DNA of 64,000 nt from Rhizophagus irregularis (Eukaryota > Glomeromycota > Glomeromycetes > Glomerales > Glomeraceae), in assembly GCF_026210795.1 (NCBI RefSeq), contig NC_089430.1, positions 1 through 64,000 on the forward strand. The letters are read 5' to 3'. Position 1 is the stretch's first letter, and each line of letters begins with the position of its first letter. A program made the position numbers and the translations under genes. This document shows, one piece after another, positions 3,236 to 55,373 of this stretch. Below the pieces are notes generated by a model. That model did not search any database and had not been told where the DNA came from. It saw only the letters and a list, made by a program, of their open reading frames with translations.

Positions 3236-4787
3236 TATTCTTTATATAACTGTAATTATAAACGGTTCTTTTTAATATAAGATTTTTGGAAAGAATAGGT
3301 GCGATAGCGACTATAGATAGATTGCGACTATATAGGATAGATTTTAATAATAAAGTATTTTTAACATTCAATGGTGTGACTATATAGTAGAATATGACTA
3401 TAACGGAGCGACTATAAAGGAAATAGACTGAAAATACATCCAAATAACCCAATCAAACCTTACTCATATGTAACTGATTACTAAATTTGCTAAAAGACAA
3501 TGCAACTCCTTAACATATGATTTTTGTATATTATTGTACAATTACGAAAAGAAAGTCGTGGAGCAGTTTATAGAATATTATGTAAAGCTACAAAATTCAA
3601 AATATTTAGAGTTGGTAACGAATTTACATTTCAATAAGACCATTAAATAGAAATTTATAAACTTAATGCTAAAGGAAGAGAAATTTTTAAACGATAAATG
3701 GATGAAACATAGTACAGTTTGATGGTTGCAGAATATCAAAATAATTTTCTATGATTAATTATGGAGGTTATAATTAAAATATTCCAATTGAAATAATACA
3801 TGACGATCTCGCTTATTTTCGTTTATTTAATGATGCAAGATATTTTATTATTTTAATGTGAAGAAAAGTAAATAGTATTTTTTTCCAAATTAATGAAAGA
3901 TATATCGTTCAGAAAATAAAAAAATTGAATGTCAAGTATACAATATAATATTAAGCAAAAAATTGAACGTTATACAGCAATATAATATTCGCAAAATCAA
4001 CAAGCCAGACAGACATCATGATAACAAAATAGTAATTATGATTCGAAAGATTTACAATTTCATATTATGAAATGGAATAAGAACAAAGAAAGGAATTATT
4101 CAATTTCAATGATTTACAATATGAAGGGGCGAGCCTCAGTCAGTAAAGCGGAAAGGGATGTTACCGAGAAGAAAATAGAAATGATGAACATTTCTTGAAA
4201 TAAGAAAGGACATTGATGAAGAACGAGAGGTGATATGCGCGAGCATATTGCGAATGTAAGTATGAGGATGACGGAGTTGTCATATGGCTTCATGCGTTAG
4301 TAATACTACAAATTGTTTCTAAATAAATAATCAGATTAATTTACGAATTAAATAAAAAATAAAATATTTACGTGGTTTTCTAATATTTACGTCGTTTTTT
4401 CCCAAAAACGTTCACCGAATTCCTCATAATACTTCGTTCCTAGAGCACTTTTCCTTCCCTTTAGCTTACCCTTGATATATAATTGCATTTTCTAATAAAA
4501 TTATAAAATTATATTTTTATTTAATATGCCAAAAATAGTAGTTCGAACTCGAAATAACAAATAGTATACTTTATGTTCATACGTTCGTTAAATTTTTCTT
4601 TACATTGCCTCCCAATATACGTAAATTCGAATTCAAGGTTTATTTTACTGCTAAAATTTTCCAAAAATTATGCTTCATATTACCACTAAGTTCATGAAAA
4701 TTATCGTTTTCTGTTTTTCTATTAATTAAAACTCGCAATTGTCTATCAGTCCACATGTTATTAAAGAATTAATGAAATATTAATGAA
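3236..4787. other. AT-rich intergenic stretch, nothing recognised
   Basis: I see no gene, RNA or tandem structure here beyond low-complexity AT runs. Short open frames have no recognisable motif. Confidence 0.5.
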
Positions 4788-16814: not shown

Positions 16815-18606
16815 CTATCTTCTATATTTTTCAGCTTCTCTAATAATTTTGGTTTTTAAACCAATCTTTATTCCTAAATCCTGCCAATCAGTTTCTTTGA
16901 GATCAAATTATCTAAAACATCAATTGTTTCCTGTATAAATTTATCCTTAACTCCCTCAAAAGTATCTTCACCAAATTCTTTTTCTAAATTGAAAAAATTC
17001 ATCAATTGATGGAACAGGAATTATGACAATTATTTTGAGGTGTTTGTGAAAAGTTATTTGACGCGTAAGTTGGTTGAGGTGGTTGTGAATTTTGTTGATT
17101 AAACATACCTGGATAATAAACTGGAAAGGCATAGCAATAAAAGATGATGACGTAGTAGTAGAAGGATAAAAGGAATTACATTTGAATTTTGTAAATTACT
17201 ACTTGTTCTTTTTACCGAATATGCAGCATCAAAATAATGGTAATGTTGGAAGCTCTTCTAAAGAAGCCAAATTTTGATTCTACAAAATAAATTAAAATAA
17301 AAATAAGTTATCTGTAAATAAAATTTTCAAAATATTGTGATCATGAACGTTAGATGATCGTTAATGGTATGTTATGCGTTAATAAATGTCATATTGACTT
17401 ACGATTGATTTAGCCCATGTAGATAAATGATCTGTTGTAAGAGTAATATGCCTTGTCAAACCAACATAGCGTGTTCAATACAATACCATCTAGAATGCAA
17501 CTCCATAACAATTTTTGCAATTTGAGCATCAGTTTCATTAATACTTTTTTCTTTTGGAATTTGATTTGAAGAAAATTTTTTCTTTTTATCGTCGCAGTTT
17601 GATTTTTTCTTTTTGTTTGTTTATTTCTTCGTCATCATCAATTTGATAGTTAATATTATTAATATGAATAAATTTTTAGTTGATTTTTTTTTCGGAAAAA
17701 AAAAAATAATAATTACCTGGATTGAGTTCTCTTGTTGGTCTTTTTTTTTCATTGTGATAATAATTACCATTATTTTTTATTATTATTATTATATTCCTTA
17801 AAAATTCTGCCCAATCTCTCGTACTTACTAATTGAGTTCCTAATCCCCCTTCTTTTTCATATTATATGATGTAATATAATATTCTTGAAAAATGACTTGA
17901 ACTTCAAGTTGTGATTGCACTAAAATTTCCAAATTATCTTTAAAACTATAAACATCTTCATCTTCTATAACAATACGTTCCCATTTAGCTGGATAAGATT
18001 TCCCATCTAATAATTAGTTTTAAATTTCAATTCAAGTATGGAAGATTCACTTGTTGATGAATCTAGCGATGATTCATCGGGAGGAACATGATTCTACAAT
18101 GTATTTGTATCTGCGGTTAATGTTGAGATGTGATACCGTATCAGCAGTTGGTGTTGCATTAGCATCAGCATCAGCAGCTGTGTCGCATCAACAATCGGTG
18201 CCGCATCAGCAGATGGCGTTGCAGTTGGTATATTAATAGACTGTGTTTTAGGCAAGGAAGTATGTTCTATGTCTCCAACTTCAATTGATTCCTCTTGAGT
18301 TTAAATTTTTTTCTACCTAGACGATTGAATTTGTTATGGCATTTAGGGCACAAAGAAAAGTCAAACTCTTCAGAAAAGTTTATGTTATATCCATAATATT
18401 CACTTTACATTTAATTGCCAAGAGTTATATGGTTTTTTGTTAAGGTCACTTGAGTTAAAAGTGCGTGTATAATATTTCTTGAAACACCTTTTTCTAATTT
18501 CTGATGTTTTTATTTTCTTTTTGCATTTACGTACTGCAGTTTTTATTACAGTGTAAACACTCTAGCATAAACCTATAGTATATATTCTTGCCTTTATACT
18601 AGACAT
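16815..18606 (-). pseudogene. Broken gene of a probable Glomeromycotina-specific family (CxxC motif + SAM-like C-terminus)
   Basis: On the minus strand an ATG at 18606 begins MSSIKARIYTIGLC (then a stop), followed by a Lys/Arg-rich region. An exon near 18370 reads FDFSLCPKCHNKFNRLGRKK (a CxxC motif). Next come a segment of low-complexity Thr/Ala, one reading DGKSYPAKWERIVIEDED (near 18008), and a Pro/Gln/Asn-rich linker. The 3' end reads LKETDWQDLGIKIGLKTK and stops at 16815, resembling the C-terminal SAM-like helices of a multicopy Rhizophagus protein family as I remember it. Several stops and frame changes interrupt it. Function is unknown. The family assignment rests on motif memory only. 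Confidence 0.5.
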
Positions 18607-18868
18607 TGTTACTAAAGATATATTTTGTATTCGCGTCAAAATATGACATTTTATCAGTTTCGCGGTACTTTATAATATTATAATAAATTGTTGGTACAAC
18701 ATTTTCGTGTTCTACAGAATCATTAATATAGTTGTACAATATTGAAACCTGAAATTGGTATCTGCATTTTGCATTTACACAAATAGCTATATATACTCGA
18801 ACAAAGACGTTTAATTATATTTATCCTATTTTTTAGGAAGAATTCCAATAAAATTAATTATTCAGTAA

Positions 18869-21800
18869 TGGCTCAAAGTAACAATGAAGGTAAAAGCATA
18901 TAGCATCAAATACAAATTGAAATTATTCTAAAATTTTTCTAAACAAATTTGCAATATAATAAAACTAGTTTCAAGAATTGAGAAAGATAAAGGTAAAATT
19001 ATAAACATGTGATTTAAATTTTTAAACTAATCATTAAAAATTATTTTAATATGTTAGCTCGTAAGTAATAAGATATCTTGTTGGAATGATAATTAAATTA
19101 TATTTTATATAACCAAATAATTTATTTTATTATTAACGTTATTATAGTTAGTAAGTTAATAGTTATTTATTTTTTATTGTATTTTTTACATGACATTTCA
19201 AATAACTAAATTTTTCATTATTATAATTGTTTAATAATCACTTATATTATAGCAAGTAAGTATTTAATTTTATATTAATTTAAAAATATTTGTATAATTC
19301 AAACTAATAATATTATTTATTTAAATAATTAGATTGTAAGTTACTGTGTATATTTTAATTTTTATATATAATATATAATTGATTATAATTACTTTACTAC
19401 AAAATTATTATTAATTAATAATATTACAGGGTGTAAGTTATTTATTTAATTCTATTATATTTATATAATATTTATATGTATAATTTAAACTAACTAAATT
19501 ATTTAAAATTATTTATTTAATAATATAGGGAGTAAGTTATTTATTTAATTCTATTATATTTATATAATATTTACATATAATTTAAACTAACTAAATTCTT
19601 TATTAAAAAATTATTTATTTAATAATATAGTTCGTAAGTTATTTATATTTATATAATATTTACATATAATTTAAATTAACTAAATTCTTTATTTAAAAAA
19701 TTAATTTAATAATATAGGAAGTAAGTTATTTATTTAATTTTACCATATTTATATAATATTTATATATAATTTAAACTAACTAAATTCTTTATTTAAAAAA
19801 TTATTTATTTAATAATATAGTTTGTAAGTTTTTTATTTAATTCTATTATATTTAGTATATAATATTTACATATAATTTAAACTAACTAAATTCTTTATTT
19901 AAAAAATTATTCAAATATTTTAGATGGTAAATTTCTATTATTTATATATATAATATTTACATATAACTTAAACTAATTAATTCTTTATTTAAAAAATTAT
20001 TCAAATATTTTAGAAGGTAAATTTTTATTATATTTATATAATATTTACATATAATTTAACTAAATTTTTTATTTAAAAAATTATTCAAATATTTTAGAAG
20101 GTAAATTTCTATTATATTTATATAATAATATTTACATATAATTGAAATTAACTAAATTTTTTATTTTAAAAAATTATTTATTTAATAATATAGCTTGTAA
20201 GTTATTTATTTAATTTTACCATATTTATATAATATTTATATATAATTTAAACTAACTAAATTCTTTATTTAAAAATTATTTATTTAATAATATAGCTTGT
20301 AAGTTATTATTTAATTTTATTATATTTATAATATTTACATTATAATTTAAATTAATTAAATTCTTTATTTAAAAAATTATTTATTTAATAATATAGTTTG
20401 TAAGTTATTTATTTAATTTTATTATATTTATATAATATTTATATATAATTTAAACTAACTAAATTTTTTTATTTAAAAAATTATTTATTTAATAATATAG
20501 GGAGTATGTTATTTAATTTTATTATATTTATATAATATTTACATATAATTCAAACTAACTAAATTTTTTATTTAAAAAATTATTCAAATATTTTAGAAGG
20601 TAAATTTCTATTATATTTATATAATATTTACTATAATTACAATTAATTAAATTCTTTATTCAAAAAATTATTTAATAATATAGGAAGTAAGTTATTTATT
20701 TAATTTTATTATATTTATATAATATTTACATATAATTCAAACTAACTAAATTTTTTATTTAAAAAACTATTCAAATATTTTAGAAGGTAAATTTCTATTA
20801 TATTTATATAATATTTATATATAATTTAAATTAACTAAATTCTTTACTTAAAAAATTATTCAAATATTTTAGATGGTAAATTTCTATTATATTTATATAA
20901 TATTTATTATATATAATTTTTAAACTAATTAAATTCTTTATTTAAAAAATTATTTATTTAATAATATAGTTTGTAAGTTATTATTTAATTTTTTTTTATA
21001 TTTATATAATATTTATATATAATTTAACTAATAAAATTTTTTTATTTAAAAAATTATTTATTTAATAATATAGTTTGTAAGTTATTTATCTAATTTTTTA
21101 TTATATTTATATTATTTACATATAATTTAAACTAATTAAATTCCTTATTTAAAAAATTATTTATTTAATAATATAGTTTGTAAGTTATTATTTAATTTTA
21201 TTATATTTATATAATATTAATATATAATTCAAACTAACTAAATTTTTTATTTAAAAAATTATTTATTTAATAATATAGGGAGTAATAAATTATTTAATTT
21301 TATTATACTTATTATAATATTTATATATAATTTAAACTAACTAAATTCTTTATTTAAAAAATTATTAAATATTTTAGAAGGTAAATTTTTATTATATTTA
21401 AATAATATTTACATATAATTTAAACTAACTAAATTTTTTATTTTAAAAATTATTTATTTAATAATATAGGAAGTAAGTTATTTATATAATTCTATTATGT
21501 TTATATAATATTTACATATAATTTAAATTAATAATTTTTTATTTAAAAAATTATTTATTTAATAATATAGGAAGTAAGTTATTTATTTAATTTTATTATA
21601 TTTATATAGTAATATTTATATATAATTCAAACTAACTAAATTCTTTATTTAAAAAATTATTTATTTAATAATATAGTTTGTAAGTTATTTATCTAATTCT
21701 ATTATATTTATATAATATTTACATATAATTTAAACTAATTAAATTCTTTATTTAAAAAATTATTCAAATATTTTAGATGGTAAATTTTTATTATATTTAT

Positions 21801-24800
21801 ATAATATTTACATACAATTTAAACTAATTAAAATTCTTTTATTTAACAAATATTTTAGAAGGTAAATTTTTATTATATTTATATAATATTTATATATAAT
21901 TTAAACTAATTAAATTTTTTATTTAAAAAATTATTCAAATATTTTAGATGGTAAATTTATATTATATTTATTATAATATTTCCATATAATTTAAATTAAC
22001 TAAATTCTTTATTTAAAAAATTATTCAAATATTTTAGAAGGTAAATTTATATTATATTTATAATATTTTCATATAATTTAAACTAATTAAATTCTTTATT
22101 TAAAAAATTATTCAAATATTTCAGAAGGTAAATTTCTATTATATTTATATAATATTTATATATAATTTAAACTAATTAAATTTTTTATTTAAAAAATTAT
22201 TCAAATATTTTAGAAGGTAAATTTATATTATATTTATATAATAGTTATATATAATTTAAATTAATTAAATTCTTTATTTAAAAATTATTTATTTAATAAT
22301 ATAGGGAGTAAGTTATTTATTTAATTCTATTATATTTATATAATATTTATATATAATTTAAATTAACTAAATTTTTTATTTAAAAAAATTATTCAAATAT
22401 TTTAGAAGGTAAATTTATATTATATTTATATAATATTATATAATATTTAAATTAACTAAATTCTTTATTTAAAAAATTATTCAAATATTAGATGGTAAAT
22501 TTCTATTGTATTTATATAATATTTTCATATAATTTAAACTAACTAAATTCTTTATTTAAATAATTATTTATTTAATAATATAGCTCGTAAGTTTTTTATT
22601 TAATTCTATTATATTTATATAATATTTATATATAATTTAAACTAATTAAATTCTTTATTTAAAAAATTATTTATTTAATAATATAGAAAGTAAGTTTTAT
22701 TTAATTTTATTATATTTATATAATATTTATATATAATTAATTTAAACTAATTAAATTATTATTTAATAATATAGCTCGTAAGTTTTTTATTTAATTCTAT
22801 TATATTATATAATTTTATATATAATTTAAATTACTAAATTTTTTATTTAAAAAATTATTTATTTAATAATTATAGTTTGTAAGTTATTTATTTAAATTAT
22901 TATATTTATATATAATTTAAATTAACTAAATTTTTTATTTAAAAAATTATTTATTTGATAATATAGGGAGTAAGTTATTTATTTAATTCTATTATATTTA
23001 TATAATATTTTCATATAATTTAAACTAATTAAATTCTTTATTTAAAAAATTATTCAAATATTTTAGATGGTAAATTTCTATTATATTTATATAATATTTA
23101 TATACAGTATAATTTAAACTAATTAAATTCTTTATTAAAAAATTATTTATTTAATAATATAGGAAGTAAGTTATTTATTTAATTTTATAATATTTATATA
23201 TAATTTAAATTAACTAAATTTTTTATTTAAAAAATTATTTATTTAATAACATAGAAAGTAAGTTATTTATTTAATTTTATTATATTTATATAATGTTTAC
23301 ATATAATTTAAACTAATTAAATTCTTTATTAAAATATTTTAGCTTGTAAGTATATATTATATTTTTTTAATTTAATATAATTAATTTATTATAATTATAT
23401 TATACTTACTTATAATCTTTTTAAATTTTATTTTAGTTGGTAAGTTATAAATTATTATATATAATAAAATTTATATAAAAATTAAATATTATTGTATTAA
23501 AATTTTATAATTTTATTTAGAGTAAGTATAATTTATATTATTCAATATTAAATTTTTAATTGTAAATTATATTTTAAATTTAAATATAATTTTATTTTTT
23601 ATATTTAAAGATTTGGTAATAGTGGAAGTAAAATAATGGATCAATTTATTTTTAAAAATAAATTAAAATGGATTTCTTATGATAAATTTGAAAATATTAA
23701 TAAATATTCTGATAAAGAAGGATTTGGTACTATATATAAAGCTAAATATAAAAGGATTAAAGTAATTCTTAAAGATTTTAATCATCTTAATAATTCAGAT
23801 GAATGTTTAAATGAATTTTTAAATGAAGTATGATTAAGTATTTTTTTTTTTATGTTAATTATTATTTATTTATATTAATTTACTAAATATTATTTTTTTT
23901 ATAGTGGAAAATTATTGATTCAAATAAAATTATTAAGATATATGGATTTACAAAAAATCCAGATACTTTGAATTATATATTAATAATGGAATATATAGAT
24001 AAAGGTAATTTAAGAAAATGTTTGACAGAAATAACAAATACTTGGAAACAAAAATTATTTAATTTATATAAAATTATTGATGGTCTTAATGATATTCATA
24101 AAAAAAATCTTATTCATTATAACTTTCATGATGGCAATATTTTATGTAATGAATATAAAGAAAATATATATGGAATTTATATTAGTGATTATTTGGAATT
24201 ACACCAACTTACAAAATTTTTTTTTAAAAAAAATAATATTTATGGTGTTATACCATTTATGGCACCTGAAATTTTAAAAGGTCAACCTTATACTCAAGCT
24301 AGTAATATATATAGTTTTTCTATGATTATGTGGGAATTTACATCTGGAATTCCACCATTTAATGATAAAGCACATAATCTTCAACTTGCTTTAAATATTT
24401 GTAAAGGTGAACGTCCTGAAATTATTAAAAATACTCCACAATGTTATATAAATTTAATGGAAAAATGTTGGAATGAAGATCCATTAAAAAGACCATCTGC
24501 ATCAACAATTTTAAATATTATTAAAAATTGGATTTCTTTTCCTTTAGAAAAGAAAATTGAAGATATTAATGAAGAATTAAGAAGCAATATTATGGAATTT
24601 ATAAATGCATCTAATAATAATTACATTAATCATACTGTAAAATTTCATCCACAAGCATACTATACAAGTCGTTTACTTGATTTTACTAGTATAAATTTAA
24701 ATGAAATTTTATTTCTTAAATTAAAACAAGAGCTTTTTAAATTAGAAAAGATTATTGAAACTAATGATCAAAGTTCTTACCAAATGGAAAAAAATGATTT

Positions 24801-24882
24801 GCAAGCTCAATTAATTCAATTAAAAGCTAATATTCAAGAATCAAAATTTCAGCAAGATCAATTTAAAAATCTATTAATTTAA
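18869..24882 (+). CDS. Kinase-like gene with a chain of ~47 three-nucleotide micro-exons
   Basis: Proposed exons: 18869-18890 (MAQSNNE..), 18969-18992, 47 exons of 3 nt between 19058 and 23439, a 1-nt exon at 23521, then 23611-23827 and 23905-24882. The sum is 1383 nt (461 codons including stop), and phase 1 is held through all 3-nt exons. The kinase part resembles the expanded TKL-like kinases of Rhizophagus: WISYDKFENI, glycine loop EGFGTIYKA, lysine in VILKDF, then HYNFHDGNIL, SDYLEL, MAPEIL and a C-terminal coiled coil. The HRD Asp position holds Asn and DFG reads DYL, so catalysis is doubtful. The last intron (23828-23904) is an ordinary GT-AG intron. An alternative is a shorter gene starting at the Met at 23636, with the array as upstream satellite. 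Transcript evidence would decide. Confidence 0.7.
18993..23610 (+). repeat. Tandem array of ~75-105-bp intron-like units
   Basis: Each unit begins GTAAGT or GTAAAT, carries 'tatttatataatatttatatataattt', has a branch-like CTAAC or CTAAT, and ends in AATATAG or ATTTTAG. Three bases then precede the next GTAAGT. Positions of the triplets: AAG at 20014, 20098, 20597, 20784, 21378, 21859, 22038, 22125, 22214, 22406; ATG at 19924, 20873, 21777, 21948, 22492, 23067; TTT at 19821, 20397, 20970, 21074, 21177, 21677, 22876; GGA at 19529, 20501, 21279, 22305, 22967; GAA at 19718, 20684, 21470, 21571, 23163; CTT at 20194, 20296, 23343; CTC at 19058, 22584, 22775; AAA at 22687, 23255; singles TTA 19148, CAA 19253, ATT 19333, GGT 19430, TTC 19631, TTG 23437. 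A one-base unit (A) is at 23521. Unit bodies are near identical while the triplets differ. Confidence 0.9.
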
Positions 24883-25080
24883 TTTCTCAAATTTCTTAAA
24901 TTAATTATAAGTAAATAGAAGAAAAAAAATTTTAGGTTAGAAAGATTGCTAATATTATTTAAATTTTTAGAAAATTTTTATATAAAAAAGGTTCTAAAAA
25001 TACTTTTATTAATAGAGATTTTTGTTATGCATTAGTATTTATATTTAATTTCAAAATTAATATATAAAACAAATAGGCAA
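24883..25080. other. 3' flank of the kinase-like gene
   Basis: AT-rich sequence after the stop codon, with no feature recognised. Confidence 0.4.
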
Positions 25081-25190
25081 TTTCTATTTGTACACGGGGT
25101 ATTTGAACTCAGGTCATGTGATTATTGCCATTTTGACTAATAGTATAAACTTCAAAATTAGTAGATAAATGGATTTTTGCCTGCTCTACA
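25081..25190 (-). repeat. tRNA-like decayed sequence
   Basis: The minus strand contains CATGACCTGAGTTCAAATACC, a B-box-like T-arm, preceded by degenerate D-arm-like sequence. It mirrors the block at 25655-25720 on the plus strand, so the two form imperfect inverted repeats around the MITE at 25390-25633. It looks like a tRNA-derived SINE relic. Confidence 0.35.
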
Positions 25191-25389
25191 AGTTTATCTA
25201 AGGAATCAAAGGTGCTTTTGAATGTCAGTTTTGACTTTACCTATGAATAATTGATTTTGCCGATCGCTCTTAAAAAAATTTAGGAAATGATCAGCAAAGA
25301 CAGTTTTTCATATATTAGTCAAAAACAGCATTCAAAACCCCCTTTAATGCCTTAAGTAAACTTGCAGAGTAGTCAAAAATATATATATT

Positions 25390-25633
25390 TAAGATTGCTT
25401 GTTTAAATCTCTTCAAAATCCTATGATTAGTTTCGTCAAAATTTTACTATAGATTTATTATAGTTTCGGCAGAGTTTCAGCAGTTTCGGCATTTATAATA
25501 AGTTTCAGCAGTTTTGCCTTTCTCCAAAGTTTTGCCAGTTTTTTAATATAACTTTAATGTAGTTTCAGCAGAATTTCACTTTTCGGCGAAATGCCATCTT
25601 GCCTAAACCCCTAGGTTTCGGCAAGCAACCTTA
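25390..25633 (+). mobile_element. 244-bp hAT-type MITE, copy 1
   Basis: The ends are inverted repeats, TAAGATTGCTTG at the left and CAAGCAACCTTA at the right. Flanking octamers TATATATT (25382-25389) and CATATATT (25634-25641) match at 7 of 8 positions, an 8-bp duplication typical of hAT insertions. The interior is rich in 'gtttcggcag' words. The same 244-bp element occurs in opposite orientation at 42230-42473. Confidence 0.9.
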
Positions 25634-28549: not shown

Positions 28550-31500
28550 TTAAAACATAAATGTATTAACAAAATATTCATTTTGTCGTTCGGCACGTTG
28601 AACTACTTGTACCAATTCTATAATTGATTCAATAGGCACAAAGTTATACGTGTTTATAATCTTCAACCAAGGACAATCATATTTGTATAATTGTCTTGAA
28701 TTACAAAAATCGTACCATTGTACAAGGGCAAGATCAAACGACAAATCTTTTTCGATAATTTTAACGTTAATCAACATAAGAACCTAAATATAAAATAAGT
28801 AAGTTATTGCTTGGATTATCATTCGTTAGTAGTTCAATATTAAATAAAATTCTGTACCTTGCCAAAACATGCACCACCTTCGGCTGTATTATAATCTTTA
28901 GACTCTTCCTCGCTCATGCTGATTGACACATCACTAAATGACGGTTCGTTATAATACAAGCTTTTTGCTCTAATGTAATCCCCGCTTGAAGAAATATTAG
29001 CATAACTATACCAACTAATATTAATAGTTTCATTATCGGTTAACCCTTCACATAAATCTAAAAACTCGTTTAACGATTCCAGAAAATATTCTAGAGCCGT
29101 TAGAGCTTCACGGGCCAAGCTATTGTTTGATCGGTAATTATTGAAAAACGCATCAAAATCTTGCAAATTAAATGTGCCTAACAAACTATTCATTAGAGTT
29201 TTTTGTTTGCGTCTATTAACATTTGTACGCTGAAGTAAGTATTTAATTATCCCTTTTCGGTAAACCTATATATAATATAACAATATTAATTTGTGATAAT
29301 GCATTGAATATCGTACTAGCTGTAATACCAACCGATTTAATCATTTGATCTGTTGGGTCACGCTTATTACTAGACCTATAGGGTATTTTTACGGCTTCTT
29401 TATGTAAAAATTCATACGTTTCCATCGTAAACCCGTTGATTGCTCCATATTCTCTAATTGTCTTAATGATATGATAGCACCAATTATGCAGCTTTGGTAA
29501 TCGAAGTTCTGATAGAGAATATTCTTTAAATAGTTTTATAAAGCTCTTTGCCCATTGTTTGATTAGATTCTTTAAACAAAATAAAATATAATCATGTTAA
29601 TTGCAATATTCATAAAAAACTAATCATCATATTATCTCGCTATCATACATCAAAAATCACCAGCTCTGATTCCTTAAAATACTCCCGTCGGCTGTATAAA
29701 TACATCTTATTCCAATAATAATACACGTTAACCAATGCTTCATCAGATCGTTTGGCTCGGGATGTACTTATCGATGATTTGTGGTGGTTTATGACTATTC
29801 CTTCTATGACGAAAACAAATACCTTCATCATATTCCGAAATTCATTGGCAGTAAACCGCTTAATATTTTCCAGGCCATTCTTGAATATCTTAAGGCCAGG
29901 AAATCGTGGGATTTTAGCCAAACGATTATCAAGTTCGTCAACCGCTATTTGACCACACAATTCTTTTAACAACACCCTTGTGTAGGTCACTTGATAATTA
30001 AACAATCCCAAGTCGAGATGATGCATTCGGTCAGGTATTGTTGACAAATAAATATTTAACTGACTATCGTTTATTTTTGAGTAAATATATTAGAAAATAA
30101 TTGGCAAAATAAACACACTTTCTTTAAAAATCACGTGATACGTACGGATAATTCCAAAAGATGTTTTTCATATCGTGTAGAGAATATTGTTGTGCAGAAT
30201 TTTGTTCAACAAGACATCTCATATTTTCTGGTGTTCTTAAGATAATTTGATCGTTTGTTAACTCCACATTGTTCAGCTTCTCACGCTCCACCAAACATTT
30301 ATGACAAGGGTGGTGACAATTAACAGAGTTAAATGTTAAAGTTACCGCAGCATTTTCTGGTAAATCTCCTAACATTACGGAAATAAACGGAAAACACCAC
30401 TTTATACCATTATCTGTTTGAAGATCAAATCCACCATTATAGTCAAGTAACGATCGTGTCAATATATTTAAAGCATATTGATAAAGGACTCGCTTGGCTA
30501 ACCGAAAACTCTTTGACCTCTTTTGTGAAATATCTTTTGCCTTTAGGATCGGCAGATAACCCAAAAGTATTTTGGCATCAGGCCTATTTCTGCGCCAACT
30601 AACTATATTACCAAGTGTCAAATAAATGGGATGTTCGCTGGTCTTTCCTAAGTGATCACGTGTCGTAGCATCCGAATATAAAATTACTGACAATACATTT
30701 GCACCATTAGGAAGTGATTTTTGGACTCTTTCCCACCATTGTCCATTATATTGTTCGTTATATATTCTTTCTCCGTTATGATTTAATAGTGTAAATTTAA
30801 AAGTACAATGGGCAAATATATCCTTATTGCTCAACAATTCCTTTATAACGTCAAAAATCGGACGATAATGAAGATAATACGTTTCTTGTTTATATGTCAT
30901 GATAGGCGCTTTTTTAAAAGAAATATGTGGTACAACAATTTGATCCAACAATTGATGACCTTTTTTTACCGACGTAGGTAAAATTACATTATCGCGGCAA
31001 ATCTTTTTTGAAAATTTAAGTATATCGTTACCACATGCATCAGACAAATTCCATTTAGTAAGCAACTCCATAAAATTTCCAAACTCTTCGCTTGGAAATT
31101 CTGGTATATTTGTTACTCTAATATCAAGAGATTCGAAGGTTAGGATTGGTTCAACGTCAATTAGCGAATATTCGATTTCAATGTCTCTTGATTCGTCAAT
31201 CACTTCCTATATATGGATGTTAATAGACAATAAATACTTGATAAATATGTCGATCGCTTTCTATATATAGACATATATAGACGCACACAAAAGTATAAAT
31301 TATTTTAATTTCATTTAACGTTGATTTCTCACCTCCTCTTTCTCTTCCTCTTCCTCTTCATAGCTCACCTCTTCTAGTTGTTCATCATTATCGCTCCCTT
31401 CCTCTTCTTCTTCCCCTTCGTCTTCCCCTTCCCCTTCGTAGTTCACATCCTCTAGTACTTCATCATTATCTTCCCTTTCTTCTTCGTAGTTCACATCCTC

Positions 31501-36856: not shown

Positions 36857-38759
36857 TATACCACCTCGAAGGTATCATTTGGATTTGAAATCCTGCAACT
36901 TGTGAAGTCATCATTATTCGAAAGTAGTGGCGACATATAATGCCGCAGGATATATTAGACATGCACGAACAAAGGTAAGAAATGGAATCAATTATCACCA
37001 CGAAATATATATGCTTTTTATTTTCAGGTCGCATATCGGTAATCTTCCATACTTCTTGAATGTTTTCTTCACCAACTTCAGCAATTATTGACTTCAACAG
37101 AATTTGCTTAGCATCATATGAATCTTCAACACATCCTTCCATTACACCAGCTTCTGGATCCTATATAGCAATAGTATTAGATTTCGTTAACATTTCAATA
37201 TATAAAAAAGACACTAAATACCTCAACGATATTTGGTTCCACTTGACTTGGTACAAAGTAAAGGCATTGTGCCATTTCCATACGCTCAGCAGACAATATT
37301 TGTGGGGTTAGGTATTCAGTCATTATTTTATCGACTTTAGGAAAAAGGTCTTGACTAACCGTTATAATCCCCACGTAAGTTGATAAAATGCGGTACTCAA
37401 AAAACCGATTCCATTGAGCTTCATGTTCAAACCGTGCATCAAGAGCATCTGCGAGACCGCATAATGTACTGTTTGCTGACAACTCACGCTTGATTATATT
37501 ATTGTGACTTTTGACGCGGAAAGTAGTTTGAATTCCTGCGGTGAAAATTTTTGACGTAAATGCACGAGCTCACGCTTGACGACTAGGATAAAGAGCTCTC
37601 ATCAGGTAATCCTTTATACTAGGATATTTTTCTATAAGCTTAGACCACCTTTCATAAAAAAGTTCTTCATACAAACTGTTACGACATGAAAAAAAGCTCC
37701 GAACGAAACTTTCATATTGATCGCTGAGCTTTGATTTAACATTCTTTGGTAGATTTTCGCTGATATGGAAAATGCAATGAATCGGGTGAGTTGTCTCGTA
37801 TATTTGTGTGATCGCTGCGTTCATGGTGGGATCGGCATCTGTGATGAACACTAAAGGTTCTGTCATTGTTGCTTTTTTTGTGCACTCCAAAATCCATTTA
37901 TAAGATTCTACCGATTTGTCAGATACGAGGGCTTGAGCTACAAGTCGTGATTTAGTATTGTTATTAACGACAAGGAAAAGTGATAATGGCATTTGATAAC
38001 GGTTGGTCTTAGCAGTGTTATCGTTTAAAATAACATCATGATACTCTAACCAAAGAGTAATTTGGGACATAGACATCCAAAAAAGCTGAGTAAGTCTTTT
38101 ATCTTGATCAAACTGAAAATCAATGAACCATCTGGGATCGTTTGACTTATGCTCAATTAGTATTTTTAGTAAGCGAAATGCATCATGGATTACATCTGGC
38201 CTAACCTTATATTTTTGTATTACATTAGAGAGATCACAGTCGAGAATAGATATAGTCAGAAATTTTGCCTTCAACAACTTTTGTTGAGTGGTAATCGGTA
38301 AATTTCTATGTTCGGTGAGAAATTGGACTTCTTTAAGGACATCATCAGGAATGCAACGGTATTTTGATGAATAATTTTCAGTATCAGCAGGAAATAACGC
38401 ATAGTTGTGCAAATTATTGAAAGTGGTAAGAGATACGCCTTGAGAGTTTTGAGGGCAATTGAAATTTGCATTCCATGGACATTGCTGGCATTTTGATTTA
38501 TGATCTTGATGACTATTAATATCAACTTGTTTTTGTGGATGATAATGGCCGCCGAATTCACATCTAAAGCTATGATGTTTAATACTCCCATCTTCACGCT
38601 GACCTAATCGTTTCTTTATAATCGTAAATTCATGTCTTTTGCTATAGGCTTTTATGATTCCGTCCACATCTCCCCACGACCTAAAGGTATCGCCTATGGA
38701 AAGATTTGTTATAGTTAAATATTCAAGGTAACACAGGTCGAACAGGTGTCATTGTCGCA

Positions 38760-43595: not shown

Positions 43596-44507
43596 AGTAG
43601 GGCAAACTTGGGGGTTCTGGGACAGCGGCTATCACATAGGTCTAACCATAATTTAGTGTACCCCCAGACCACCTAGCCTTGTTTTCTGATATGTTAACAC
43701 TATACCTGTTTTTCTATCCCCAGATCACCTAACCTTGATTCCCGATATGTTATTACTTGATAGCTAAAAAAGAACCCCCAAGCGTTGTAGATAAGATTAA
43801 CATCATTTATTCCTAGGCATTATTACCACGCATGGATCCATTCCAGGGTATCATAATTTTATGCTATATCAGATTGCCTTTATAAGTGCCAAAGGTATGA
43901 AGGACACGAAGTGTCTGTAATACCGATGGCACGATTCAGCAATCCATTGTGGCATACTATTTTTATGATACTCTAAAATGGATTCATTTGATGATTTAAG
44001 CCATTCATGCTCTAACCAAAAATTTTTAACAGGAAGGTAACTAGACATATTGTAAAGCTTTTCCTGCTATACGAAAAAATCTGGGACAGTGAAGTCTAAC
44101 CAAAAATCTAACCCAGGTCTAACCAAAAATGTATAGCAGGAAGGCAACTAGATATGTTTTAAAGTTTTTCCTCCTATACGAAAAAATCTGGGACAGCGAA
44201 GTCTAACCAAAAATCCAACCCAAGTCTAACCAAAAAATGTATAGCAGGAAGGCAACTAGATATATTGTAAAGCTTTCCCTGCAATACGAAAAAATCTGGG
44301 ACAACAGGTCTAACCAAAAGTCTAACCAAAAATCCGTCTGAGGTCTAACCAAAAAATATACAGCAGGAAGACAACTAGACATATTGTAAAGCTTCCCCTA
44401 CAATACGAAAAAATCTGGGACAATGAAGTCTAACCAAAATTTAACTCTAATCATAAATTGCTCTGATTCTTTGACGAAGCCTATTTTCATACCGATTTTG
44501 ATAGTAA
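43596..44507 (+). repeat. Left terminal inverted repeat
   Basis: It begins AGTAGGGCAAACTTGG and matches the complement of 54463-55373 to its inner end (..TTTTGATAGTAA). It contains four ~120-bp tandem units (about 44027-44440) with 'gtctaaccaaaaa', 'cagcaggaaggcaactaga' and 'tacgaaaaaatctgggaca'. Its inner edge includes the 3' end of the small Cys-rich gene. Confidence 0.93.
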
Positions 44508-50320: not shown

Positions 50321-53300
50321 CTAATATTTCTCTGGTAATCTGGTCCCTATAGCTATTTTTTCTGCTGCCTCATGACTTGTGCCACGCTCAAGAAGTTTCT
50401 TATATACTTGAATACGCCAGTGTCCGAATGGTAAGGAGGATATACCATCTGACCAAATCCAGCGTTTTGTATCGATTGGGGATAATGCCTTCTTCTCTGA
50501 CTCGATTAGTGATATTACATGATTTTTTGTACGCATTCCCACATTCTTGGCATAGAAGATATTATTTTCAAACAGACAGTCCCGATATACTTGAGTCATA
50601 GGATCGAAGATTTCATCTTTTTCTACTGTATCATCTAATAAAGTTCCACCTAAAGATGGGAAATATGTGTCCTTAGCCATATCACTCATACCCTTCTTGC
50701 TTACTCCTTTATGTTTGGACTTTGTAGACTTGTCTGCCAAGACATAGTGGTAGGATTTTGCACGGATGTGGTAGGATTCAGTAATTACATTTCCAGGAGT
50801 CTCATCCTTGAAAAGCCCGATAGTCTTGGTATCATTAAGGTCAAAGAGATCTGGACGCTCTGCCATATCCTTGTAAATATCTTCTGTCTCGACATGGTAG
50901 ATAAAGGAGTCAGTATCCATATATCCAAGTCGTACTTTGTTTCCATACTTCTCTTTGACAAAACCATACCAGAAGCGGTACATTAAGAGTTTACTGAGAC
51001 CAAGGACAGATGCACCGATAATGATAGGTTTATTGAGAATAACACTAGCCTTTCCCATATGTGCTCCTACAAGTGTGTTGCCAAGTTGACGAGCATACTT
51101 GAAGGAGGGCTTGCGAACTTTCTTAAGGAATTTCTTCTCATCATTTTCATTGATCATTCTCATAAGCTTGACATCCTGATACTTACGTACATTCTCCATA
51201 GTCTTGCCATAGACTGAGTTATTCATGAGTTTAAAGAAGTCTTTCTCAAATGAATTCTTGGATTGTTGACGTAAATTTGTATTTTTTGCAATATAAGGAG
51301 CTAACCAGTTATCTTGATCAAATGATAGGACTTGTGTAATCTCATCTACAACCATGCCTAACTTAATGTAATACTGGAGCTCTTGGTAATGTATGACATA
51401 ATCTTCATGTTTACCAAGATGTGGAACTAACTTTTCTGTTTCAGGAAATCGCCCTCCATCTAAGTTATCAACAAGTTTGGTTATATATGGGCTTAACCTA
51501 TCCTTTTTTACAGCTATACTATCAACTGCAGGAGGTAAATCTTATAGATAATCATGAGTCCTAAGGGGGTAGTGCGCTTTGATATTTAGGAAGTAACCAC
51601 AGGCAGCATCTGGTTTTGTATTAAGAATTACATTAAGTATCTGCTTCTGCTTATCTGGATTCTGTTTGAAATATTCTGGAGATGCTTCCCATCTGTAATT
51701 ACCAATAGGTAAGTACTGGCTCATAGCCCATCCATACAGATTGTTTGCATCTACATAGGAAATCCAGGTAGTAGGTTTAGAGGGATTAAAAGAGTCACCC
51801 ATCTTAGGGTTATTGGCTTTTAGAAAACGGTGTCCAGCCATAGCTATTCCTCCACGTTTAGCCTTTTCAGTAAAATCATGCATGGTCATGTCAGTGAATA
51901 GCTCTATTTTGACTCCAGTCATCTTAAGCATGCCATCCCATGAAAGTGCTGGTGCAGAGACATAATGACTTGGGTCAAGTCCATAATGATGCATCGCTGT
52001 CTGTTAAAACTTTGTCCAGACATCTGCTAGGAGAAGAACATCAGTCTTAAGGTAAAGGTCATGATACTCGCCCAAGTTCTTGCAGCCAAATTCCTTCCAA
52101 ACTTTTTGTGCATGTTTGTAATTATCCTGAGTGATCTTTCCTCCAAGAGTACTATGAAAGTCATGAATAGATGGGAGTTCTGTCTCCTTGAAACGATCAT
52201 GTGAATCAATATATTTATAAGGATAAACCCCTTTACGTGTGATTAAGTCAATATGTTCAGACGAGAAGTTTTTGAAGTGTCGCTTTGTGAGGGGTTTATC
52301 TGTCCCTAAATTCTTTGCAAGGTTTGCAAGACTGGAGGCCATGAACTGCATGCTATCAATGTACTTGAATTGCCCTACCTTCATGGATTTGTAACGTTCG
52401 AATGTCTCTGCAATAACTTTGATTTGATGTGCTCCAATTGATCGTCCAACAGATTCACAAACTAAATGGGAGTCATAGCCACAGAAGTTATGAAATACTA
52501 CAGGAATTGGAGTCTTCCATGCTTCGATTTGAAGCTTAAGATTGCATGCATTATGAGCAGCTCCACGAAACTTACCTGTGATGTGGCAGTGATCCCAAAC
52601 TTTTTTGTCTTGCACGCCCTGATTGAAATTCCCATTACATATCCAACAACTAACTGCTTCAGTGAATTCCTTTTTAGCTTCCTCTGTTATAATACGTTCT
52701 ACTTTTACTTCTAAAACATCATTAATCCTTCTTAATTCTTTATCAAGTCTGCAGACAAACTCTTCTGTTGCATTTGGTCCTCGGTATAAGAATGGCCCCC
52801 ATGTCTCATCAGTTTCAATCCAGTGGACCATATAGCAGAAGCTATTAGCCTTTTGCTCCATAATCTTATGCATATTTCCACCATAGTTTTCATTACACTT
52901 TCTGTTATCAGCCTCAAAGTCTGCAATAATTACACATGGAGCATACATTGTTCGGTTAAAATTCTTAAACTCCTCAAAATCATTCTTACCTTTAACTGGT
53001 AACTCAACTCTTTGTGGTGACTCACCTAATCCAAAACACCATTCCTGATGATTAGTTAGAGATTTAGACGATGGAAAGCTTTGGAAGCACCGATTGCAAA
53101 GATGCTTCTTTCCCTTGTGGGATGTATCTTTGTATATTAAAGCATCAGGATTCTTAATCCAAAGGAAGTGATTCTTCTGACCATACTTTCCTTCATCTGA
53201 TTTTGTAATATCTGTAAGGGCCATGAGGTGAATGATATGTTGACGGTTGTAATTCTTACTTGCAATAACAGGTTTTGGAATACCAGTTTTCTCCTCCCAT

Positions 53301-54392
53301 TCCCATACATTAATGGAGATCTCAGGATTGAGGTCCTCAATCTTGCTAAATATGCGTGGACAAACAGGAGTGGGCATGGGAATTGCATTGAGATTGACTT
53401 GTTCCAAGTATGGCTTAAATTTTTCTGCCCGAAAGATTCGCTCAAGTTTTTGTGTATGTCCATCTTTATATGCAAAGTAAGCACCTAAAGCCCCTTGCAA
53501 ACATTTTTCAGAGAGCAAGCCTGTGTCCGGATCTATGAGATCTTTGTTATCCGGATTGATAGTGCACTCACTTCTTATTTGCAAGTGCCTTAGGTGTAAG
53601 TATGTATGAGCCTCCTTCTGCTCGGCGGTAAGTATACGTCTCAATAGTTAATATATCTATACTAACAATTTTCCAACCAGACCCTCCTTTCATAAATTTG
53701 ACAATTTTATCTGTGATATCTACTGCTGATTTCGTTAAATGATCATCTATATCATTCTTTAAAAGAAGTACACGCATGACTCCTCTATGATAAACTTGCT
53801 TATATGTTCCACTATTATCTGTATATGTAGCCAATATAGTGATAGCTGATTTGATTTGCCCCTTTTCTTCAAGTTCACTCTCAAGAATTTCTGTTATTTT
53901 CTGACGGGTATCAGCTATTACACTTGGAAAATATGGTATATCTCTAACATTTGGTTTAAGATCAGCTTGCCATACTGTCTTATGTTTTAGAGATTTATGT
54001 GAACGTGCAGGATCATGAACTCTTTTTACAAATTGAATATCACACCATCTTCCTCTATAATCTCCTTGCATATAAGCAAACCATTCATTATCTGTTTGGG
54101 GAGCTCTTCTTTTTCGTGGAGTATATTGATTGTAATCACCAGGTCCTGCTAACCATTTTGCTAGTTCATCAATTGATAAATTAGGAGTTTTCTCTGCAGG
54201 AGCTGGGATAACTTCAGGTATGAGTTCCTGGAGTTGCTCCGGTTGTGGTTGCAATTGTACAATCTCAGGTGTGGGATCCTGAGGGTTAGCTGTAGGCTTG
54301 CATAGAAACTTTCTATTTTGATGCCCACGAAGCTTTTGTGGAGTTGCAAAAGTCTTTCCACATCTATCACAAGTTCGATTACTTGTTGCCAT
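50321..54392 (-). pseudogene. Family B DNA polymerase (protein-primed type), broken
   Basis: The first frame (54392 to about 53571) has a C2H2-like finger, CDRCGKTFATPQKLRGH, and a conserved-looking domain. A +1 shift at about 53570 leads to the polymerase frame. Exonuclease motifs: IIADFEADN, VVFHNFCGYDSHL and YHDLYLKTDVLLLADV. Polymerase motifs: SYVDANNLYGWAM (A), KLMNNSVYGKTMEN (B) and YMDTDSFIYHV (C). A second finger (CNRCFQSFPSSKSLTNHQEW) and an HNH-like WDHCHITGKFRGAAHNAC segment lie before the exonuclease. In-frame TAA codons at 52004-52006 and 51542-51544 break it. Total length is about 1350 codons. It would replicate the element DNA; this copy cannot unless stops are read through. 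Confidence 0.9.
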
Positions 54393-54462: not shown

Positions 54463-55373
54463 TTACTATCAAAATCGGTATGAAAATAGGCTTCGTCAAA
54501 GAATCAGAGCAATTTATGATTAGGGTTAAATTTTGGTTAGACTTCATTGTCCCAGATTTTTTCGTATTGTAGGGGAAGCTTTACAATATGTCTAGTTGTC
54601 TTCCTGCTGTATATTTTTTGGTTAGACCTCGGACGGATTTTTGGTTAGACTTTTGGTTAGACCTGTTGTCCCAGATTTTTTCGTATTGCAGGGAAAGCTT
54701 TACAATATATCTAGTTGCCTTCCTGCTATACATTTTTTGGTTAGACCTGGGTTGGATTTTTGGTTAGACTTCGCTGTCCCAGATTTTTTCGTATAGGAGG
54801 AAAAGCTTTAAAACATATCTAGTTGCCTTCCTGCTATACATTTTTGGTTAGACCTGGGTTAGATTTTTGGTTAGACTTCACTGTCCCAGATTTTTTCGTA
54901 TAGCAGGAAAAGCTTTACAATATGTCTAGTTACCTTCCTGTTAAAAATTTTTGGTTAGAGCATGAATGGCTTAAATCATCAAATGAATCCATTTTAGAGT
55001 ATCATAAAAATAGTATGCCACAATGGATTGCTGAATCGTGCCATCGGTATTACAGACACTTCGTGTCCTTCATACCTTTGGCACTTATAAAGGCAATCTG
55101 ATATAGCATAAAATTATGATACCCTGGAATGGATCCATGCGTGGTAATAATGCCTAGGAATAAATGATGTTAATCTTATCTACAACGCTTGGGGGTTCTT
55201 TTTTAGCTATCAAGTAATAACATATCGGGAATCAAGGTTAGGTGATCTGGGGATAGAAAAACAGGTATAGTGTTAACATATCAGAAAATAAGGCTAGGTG
55301 GTCTGGGGTATACTAAATTATGGTTAGACCTATGTGATAGCCGCTGTCCCAGAACCTCCAAGTTTGCCCTACT
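54463..55373 (-). repeat. Right terminal inverted repeat
   Basis: Near-identical complement of 43596-44507, including the four ~120-bp internal units. Differences are scattered single bases and small indels, suggesting a fairly young insertion despite the broken genes. Confidence 0.93.

Follow-up and report, generated by a model that had tools for sequence, protein, structure and literature searches.

The window analysed here comprised the first 64,000 nucleotides (nt) of contig NC_089430.1 of the fungus Rhizophagus irregularis (assembly GCF_026210795.1, forward strand). At positions 18868-24882 on the plus strand it contains a kinase-like gene in which 47 consecutive exons of 3 nt are followed by a single exon of 1 nt. 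This array is real and is a member of a large gene family. Read from sequence, the locus is probably a protein-coding gene (probability approximately 0.86) whose product would carry an N-terminal segment assembled from the 47 one-codon exons and the 1-nt exon, followed by a kinase-like domain that is probably a pseudokinase. The reading was assessed by splice-site parsing, by comparison with sister arrays elsewhere in the genome and by counting stop codons at the junctions between triplets.

Structure of the gene and its sister arrays

All exons lie on the plus strand. Exon 1 (18868-18889) encodes MAQSNNE plus 1 nt and ends in phase 1. Exon 2 (18969-18992, 24 nt) encodes VSRIEKDK. The triplet array (19058-23439) consists of 47 exons of 3 nt separated by 46 introns of 77-103 nt, the first triplet being CTC at 19058-19060 and the last TTG at 23437-23439. 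The first five triplets, CTC TTA CAA ATT GGT (19058-19432), read across their junctions as A-L-T-N-W. A 1-nt exon (A, 23521-23521) brings the frame to that of kinase exon 4 (23611-23827), which reads from FGNSGS into the N lobe of the kinase-like domain. Exon 5 (23905-24882) encodes the remainder of the domain, with HYN in place of HRD and DYL in place of DFG, together with a tail that ends at a TAA codon (24880-24882). A first-pass annotation of this DNA had described 47 triplets and one single-base exon between intron-like units, all of which were located in the sequence. Its exon 1 (18869-18890) had the right length and was placed one base late, the ATG starting at 18868. The shift has no effect past exon 1, and the annotation's open frame was recovered: joined in order, the exons remain open through to the natural stop. 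No Rfam match was obtained for positions 18500-25400 of the window.

The lengths of the 46 introns between the window triplets are spread evenly over the three classes modulo 3 (16/16/14) and exon length is constant at 3 nt. The window triplets were also shuffled in order and translated in the frame set by exons 1 and 2. Shuffled orders gave a mean of 4.3 stops, and zero stops in 0.16% of 20,000 shuffles; the real order gives zero.

The same assembly (146.7 Mb in 32 contigs, of which C2 begins with the window) was searched for sister arrays. A query of 601 bases taken from the array returned 355 matches, and a second unit type, taken from locus L031, returned 324 further or overlapping matches. 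Hand clustering gave at least approximately 72 array-like places, 34 from the 601-base query, 27 more from the L031 unit and 11 more from a two-exon pattern. Most of these places were counted from matches, and the sequences of 22 arrays were read. The two-exon pattern (two consecutive 3-nt exons with TTAG..GTAAGT borders) occurs 367 times genome-wide (167 + 200), and the same pattern written backward, used as a control, occurs 0 times. The main set of 20 arrays consisted of the window array and 20 extracted stretches, two of which (L013+L014) form one array. The latter holds the longest unbroken run among the extracted arrays, 82 triplets; by eye, the run is followed by an exon that reads as Gln/Glu/Leu-rich, and the 16 kb of locus sequence examined yielded no kinase exon.

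The order of parts seen in the window recurs at these loci. In 17 of the 20 arrays, exons related to kinase exons 4 and 5 follow further downstream in the same orientation, with a gap of up to approximately 2.8 kb in some; they were not found for L013+L014, L020 and L024. Exon 1 was matched in 14 of the 20, at 22 nt (11 arrays), 19 nt (two) or 13 nt (one), all of them 1 modulo 3. Matches to exon 2 were obtained in 11 of the 20, at 24 nt in ten and 33 nt in L016. Leading triplets NAA ATT GGT were found in 11 of the 20 by a strict pattern, and also in the parsed L017 and L022. A 1-nt exon in the context AG|A|GTAAGT precedes exon 4 in 14 of the 17 loci, and its single base converts phase 1 into the phase in which exon 4 is read. 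In the three exceptions, L012 has G for A, L026 has lost the AG and L028 has other sequence at this place. L015, L019 and L027 read openly into proteins of more than 920 residues.

Exon boundaries were also called by a frame-blind parse of the 20 arrays on splice-site matrices, in which internal exons of 1-60 nt were allowed and reading frame was ignored. Exactly 3 nt were assigned to 669 of 694 internal exons. The introns have a median length of 91 nt (405 introns of 130 nt or less, ten genes), a strong GTAAGT donor, a CTAAC-like branch site and a terminal TAG. Pooled over the ten genes, the lengths of these 405 introns modulo 3 (110/188/107) are less even than in the window, as would be expected of units with common ancestry.

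Departures from the standard unit were observed at four loci. Similar inverted-repeat inserts resembling miniature inverted-repeat transposable elements lie in array introns of L027 (near 5437, plus strand) and L025 (near 3099 in locus coordinates, 6803 on the minus-strand reading); when each is read as part of a longer intron, the flanking triplets remain in frame. L016 has one 12-nt exon amid 3-nt exons (4668-4679, locus coordinates, minus strand), where the usual acceptor is absent and a CAG lying upstream, within what was the intron, yields a multiple of three. L021 has GC-AG introns (GCAAGT donors) within its array near 4405 and 3669 (locus coordinates, minus strand).

Evidence for translation of the triplets and alternative readings

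Under the phase set by exons 1 and 2, each codon comprises the last base of one triplet and the first two bases of the next, and a stop at a junction therefore requires a T-ending triplet followed by one starting with AA, AG or GA. Junctions were scored in 700 triplets (29 runs, 20 arrays), with expected counts calculated from the composition of each run. Adjacent pairs, in the frame of exons 1-2 and exon 4, gave 0 stops in 671 against 33.8 expected. At lags of 2, 3, 4, 5, 6, 7 and 8 triplets, 36, 36, 38, 32, 25, 25 and 28 stops were observed against 32.0, 30.1, 30.6, 29.8, 28.5, 27.4 and 26.1 expected. The pairs are not independent, as units share ancestry; the controls at lags 2-8 carry the same fault yet show no depletion. 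Five of the 19 runs of at least 15 triplets were individually significant at 0.05 (the window array, L013+L014, L019, L027 and L028). The divergent arrays L031+L033 and L032 gave 0 stops in 63 adjacent pairs with only 1.2 expected, and 0 at lags 2-4 also, so that they add little.

The same dependence was examined with flanking sequence held constant. Among exons with identical flanks (TTCAAATATTT..GTAAGTAATT), AA, AG or GA begins 0 of the 26 preceded by a triplet ending in T and 71 of the 125 preceded by any other (Fisher p 7e-9). For all units the corresponding figures are 0 of 166 and 160 of 497 (p 3e-24). At lags 2 and 3 no significance was reached with identical flanks or with all units. 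At lag 2 the relaxed-flank set gave a weak p of 0.048, the other two p values being 0.20 and 0.41. Together, these counts are strong evolutionary evidence, drawn from sequence, for translation of the triplets, with each one spliced directly to the next in the product on which selection acts. A chain of one-codon exons feeding a kinase, as proposed in the first pass, thus gains backing from the sister arrays, from the absence of stops at adjacent junctions only and from the 1-nt exon conserved at 14 of 17 loci. Two further candidates were discarded: the remaining third frame, in which 97 of the 671 adjacent pairs give stops, and a chance or satellite origin of the triplets, which was rejected on the basis of the shuffles, the stop tests and the pattern control (367 against 0).

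Several results weigh against the protein-coding reading. The splice-site matrices comprised intron bases only, yet were trained on introns beside junctions first found by their 3-nt spacing. When the parse was anchored at exon 1, exon 2 was misplaced at many loci, since the array-trained matrix is unfit for that exon; a second parse was anchored on exon 2, and a third started from the first triplet and permitted shorter introns and GC donors. The exon-2-anchored parse left five of ten genes open (the window gene, L015, L018, L019 and L029) and gave stops in the other five (L016, L017, L021, L025 and L027). Settings were loosened only after this result was known. With the looser settings L016 and L027 were also open, making seven open as parsed frame-blind among the 12 of 20 arrays that were parsed through to kinase exon 4. 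L017, L021 and L025 are open if an odd donor is re-read or an inserted element is left inside its intron. L022 has a stop at the junction between its last triplet and the 1-nt exon, which is not one of the 671 tested pairs; an insertion or frameshift disrupts L011; and L016 has no recognisable exon 1 start. Fourteen of the 19 runs of at least 15 triplets were not significant on their own. Public protein models also omit the array: P0001 (window gene), P0002 (L026) and P0003 (L029) begin inside or after exon 4, and a protein search with the phase-1 N-terminus of L027 returned no database protein carrying it. Part of the exon/intron contrast in divergence described below may, moreover, be attributable to constraint on the introns.

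P0001, from R. irregularis DAOM 181602=DAOM 197198, is the best database match of the window kinase and is identical to it over 85% of the query. It starts within exon 4, at the ATG at 23636-23638. This start, and a tandem repeat program that calls the array a minisatellite of 89-103 nt, would fit a non-coding AT-rich minisatellite lying in a long intron or upstream of a kinase that begins at Met 23636. Such an origin is very improbable given that phase-1 stops are avoided between neighbouring triplets alone (0 of 671, 33.8 expected), that 669 of 694 exons are held at 3 nt while intron length varies, that exon 1 is 1 modulo 3 in 14 of 14 arrays and that the 1-nt exon setting the kinase frame is conserved. 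Other public models offer a different reading, with each triplet taken in frame 0 as one codon, as in P0008, P0014 and probably P0083 and P0091. None of the 700 triplets is a stop, as this would require; only 12 of the 700 begin with TA or TG, however, so the missing stop triplets say little. Frame 0 also conflicts with exons 1-2 and, via the 1-nt exon, with exon 4; it leaves the avoidance of phase-1 stops between neighbours unexplained; and P0008 and P0014 pass directly to exon 5 without exon 4. We consider it the least credible of the readings, with almost no weight.

Translation of the triplets in phase 1 leaves two further alternatives, one concerning how they are spliced and one concerning what they do. 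The triplets might be spliced in varying combinations, giving many N-terminal peptides per gene, as is reported for Tuber melanosporum in the available parts of the sources on that fungus. A 3-nt exon is frame-neutral and its skipping would leave the frame intact. Routine skipping would, however, expose stops at lags 2 and 3, and the absence of avoidance there (36 against 32.0 and 36 against 30.1 expected) indicates no selected skipping. Stop avoidance at lag 1 alone argues against routine skipping and is compatible with occasional skipping; variable splicing as the general mode is thus judged unlikely. It is also possible, if doubtful, that the structure is translated and is yet a by-product, in which slippage or unequal exchange multiplies the units and the added codons are tolerated with no role in recognition. 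The units are minisatellite-like and homogenised, and selection against stops would by itself account for the junction results. Tolerance alone would not be expected to give triplets 5.3-7.4 times the divergence per site of adjacent introns, unless the introns are strongly constrained.

P0008, possibly the public model of L016, is 71.5% identical to it with gaps, and contains a peptide, IFMN, that equals the 12-nt exon of L016 read in frame 0. P0014 and P0091 (Rhizophagus diaphanus) and P0083 (R. irregularis) have long I/G/L/M/V-rich N-termini resembling triplet exons read in frame 0, and a protein search with the N-terminus of P0014 returned only P0014 itself. Such models suggest that arrays occur in a second species, R. 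diaphanus, and that triplets have been misread during annotation.

Codon diversity, the kinase-like domain and a proposed mechanism

Divergence was compared with partners picked by distal intron sequence alone, one random partner being taken per unit. Triplet divergence per site was 0.15-0.23 within arrays and 0.37-0.41 between arrays, which is 5.3-7.4 times the rate of the proximal intron. A nearest-neighbour comparison, which gave an exon/intron ratio of approximately 12, was rejected as biased because its partners were picked by the very flanks that were measured, and is superseded by these values. The least variable position of the triplet is its first base, which is the middle base of the codon. 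Flank classes differ in the triplets they carry: GGA is found in 45 of 54 units of one class, TTG in 15 of 19 of another and an A-initial triplet in 140 of 153 of a third, and a further class (60 units) carries mixed triplets. This pattern looks like shuffling of unit types combined with rapid evolution at the other bases. The fast change in triplets may reflect diversifying selection or, alternatively, intron constraint or local mutation.

The window gene matched kinase domains only in Pfam (PF07714, E 7.3e-33; PF00069, E 3.9e-30). The catalytic Asp of HRD and the DFG motif are hallmarks of active kinases. At the HRD position, 15 of the 17 exon-5 loci have HYN or HYS (12 by motif search, and L012, L025 and L026 by reading), the window gene having HYN. 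At the DFG position, 13 of the 17 have DYL, the window gene included. In the two most divergent loci, L023 and L030, the Asp is retained (HCD) and DLG replaces DFG. The 120 database relatives listed yielded 116 motifs of the HRD kind, of which 84 are HCD, the commonest form, and seven are HYN. Loss of the catalytic Asp suggests that the main group, including the window gene, consists of pseudokinases; arrays also occur outside this group, at L023 and L030.

A mechanism can be proposed on the reading that the triplets are translated and joined in order. Each intron of approximately 90 nt would be recognised on its own, by intron definition, which the first pass had raised as one possibility beside recursive splicing. 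An exon of 3 nt would be too small for two adjacent splicing complexes, so that neighbouring introns would be removed at different times. The simplest order would be a codon ratchet running 5' to 3', in which every step adds one codon and uncovers the donor that follows; removal of alternate introns is another possible order. Arrays may grow or shrink by duplication or exchange of intron-plus-codon units, the frame never being shifted. Diversification of the codons between introns that remain similar would provide every gene with its own hypervariable N-terminal peptide, plausibly a recognition surface. As a tentative proposal, somewhat improbable when all its parts are taken together, a codon ratchet would give ordered and full inclusion, intron-flanked codons would serve as interchangeable cassettes, homogenised introns would provide the homology for recombination, and a repertoire of hypervariable N-termini spread over the genome, mostly on pseudokinases, would form a recognition system evolved independently of the truffle case with its nucleotide-binding oligomerization domain-like receptors (NLRs).

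Comparison with known systems and significance

For microexons in the nank (NACHT-ANK) genes of Tuber, Iotti et al. 2012 is reportedly the source cited. The first-pass annotation knew of no organism with a chain of one-codon exons of this length; a precedent is the expanded nank family of T. melanosporum, for which tens of codon-sized microexons per gene are reported in the available parts of PMC4986451, PMC3689799 and PMC10197012. As far as these accounts extend, the two systems are alike in being fungal, in belonging to an expanded paralogous family of a plant-root symbiont and in having tens of tandem 3-nt exons that diversify. They differ in the host genes, which are NLR-like in Tuber and kinase-like, mostly probable pseudokinases, in Rhizophagus, a different fungal lineage. 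No NACHT or ankyrin domain was found in the window gene by Pfam, which returned kinase domains only. The exons are said to be alternatively spliced in Tuber, whereas stop avoidance points to complete and ordered inclusion here. The Rhizophagus arrays end in a conserved 1-nt exon, a feature that may set them apart from nank genes. This kind of array is thus known by report from one other fungus and differs here in its host gene, in its inferred obligatory inclusion and possibly in its conserved 1-nt exon.

The microexon genes of Schistosoma also have runs of small symmetric exons that yield variable proteins, but their exons are mostly longer than 3 nt and their products are secreted. Aphid bicycle genes, by the partial account taken from PMC9168663, have many small internal exons of nearly all one phase and evolve fast, and one megacycle gene has more than 100 microexons; unlike the genes described here they average approximately 17 exons and encode putative gall effectors, not kinases. 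Exons of 1 nt are described in plant APC11 and VPS55 (PMC8831610) and in Fusarium CYP621A (PMC12940212), to the extent that these sources were available. They too restore the frame, but on the same accounts they are lone microexons in ordinary genes with no array. Recursive splice sites usually leave nothing in the product. In recursive (ratchet) splicing, as outlined in part of PMC5126111, a donor can be regenerated at the junction at each step. The Rhizophagus sequence would likewise permit stepwise removal, with 3 nt staying at every step.

No codon-sized exon arrays from R. irregularis or arbuscular mycorrhizal fungi were found among the matches listed in open-access PubMed Central, as judged from titles and the openings of abstracts. 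The portion of the R. irregularis genome paper PMC10234402 (Manley et al. 2023) that was available makes no mention of such arrays; read mapping there used minimap2 with a maximum intron of 3000.

Other features were recorded in the window. Telomere-like TAACCC repeats (157 copies) occupy positions 1-949, the window starting at a contig end, and a likely telomere is therefore approximately 18 kb from the triplet array. Two tandem arrays of a 107-nt unit, in opposite orientation by eye, lie at 44011-44439 and 54643-54959. The minus-strand open reading frames that they enclose match DNA polymerase B weakly, at scores under the curated cut-off, and recombination endonuclease VII once (50321-53644); the region between the two arrays is possibly a large mobile element bearing a DNA polymerase. 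Minus-strand open reading frames for a Plavaka-type transposase (30124-31203) and a Mutator-like element (MULE)-type transposase (37570-38667) are also present.

An exon length of 3 nt lies at the edge of what models of splicing permit. A transcript of the window gene would undergo approximately fifty splice events, none apparently dispensable, for one codon each, and this design recurs at many places in a symbiont genome that has been widely studied. In the public models examined, R. irregularis kinase-like proteins of this class lack their N-termini or have them misread. A similar design in an unrelated fungus, in a family that the available accounts link to non-self recognition, suggests convergence. 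The arrays constitute a natural system for examining intron definition and stepwise splicing, in which exon shuffling would be possible at the scale of single codons.

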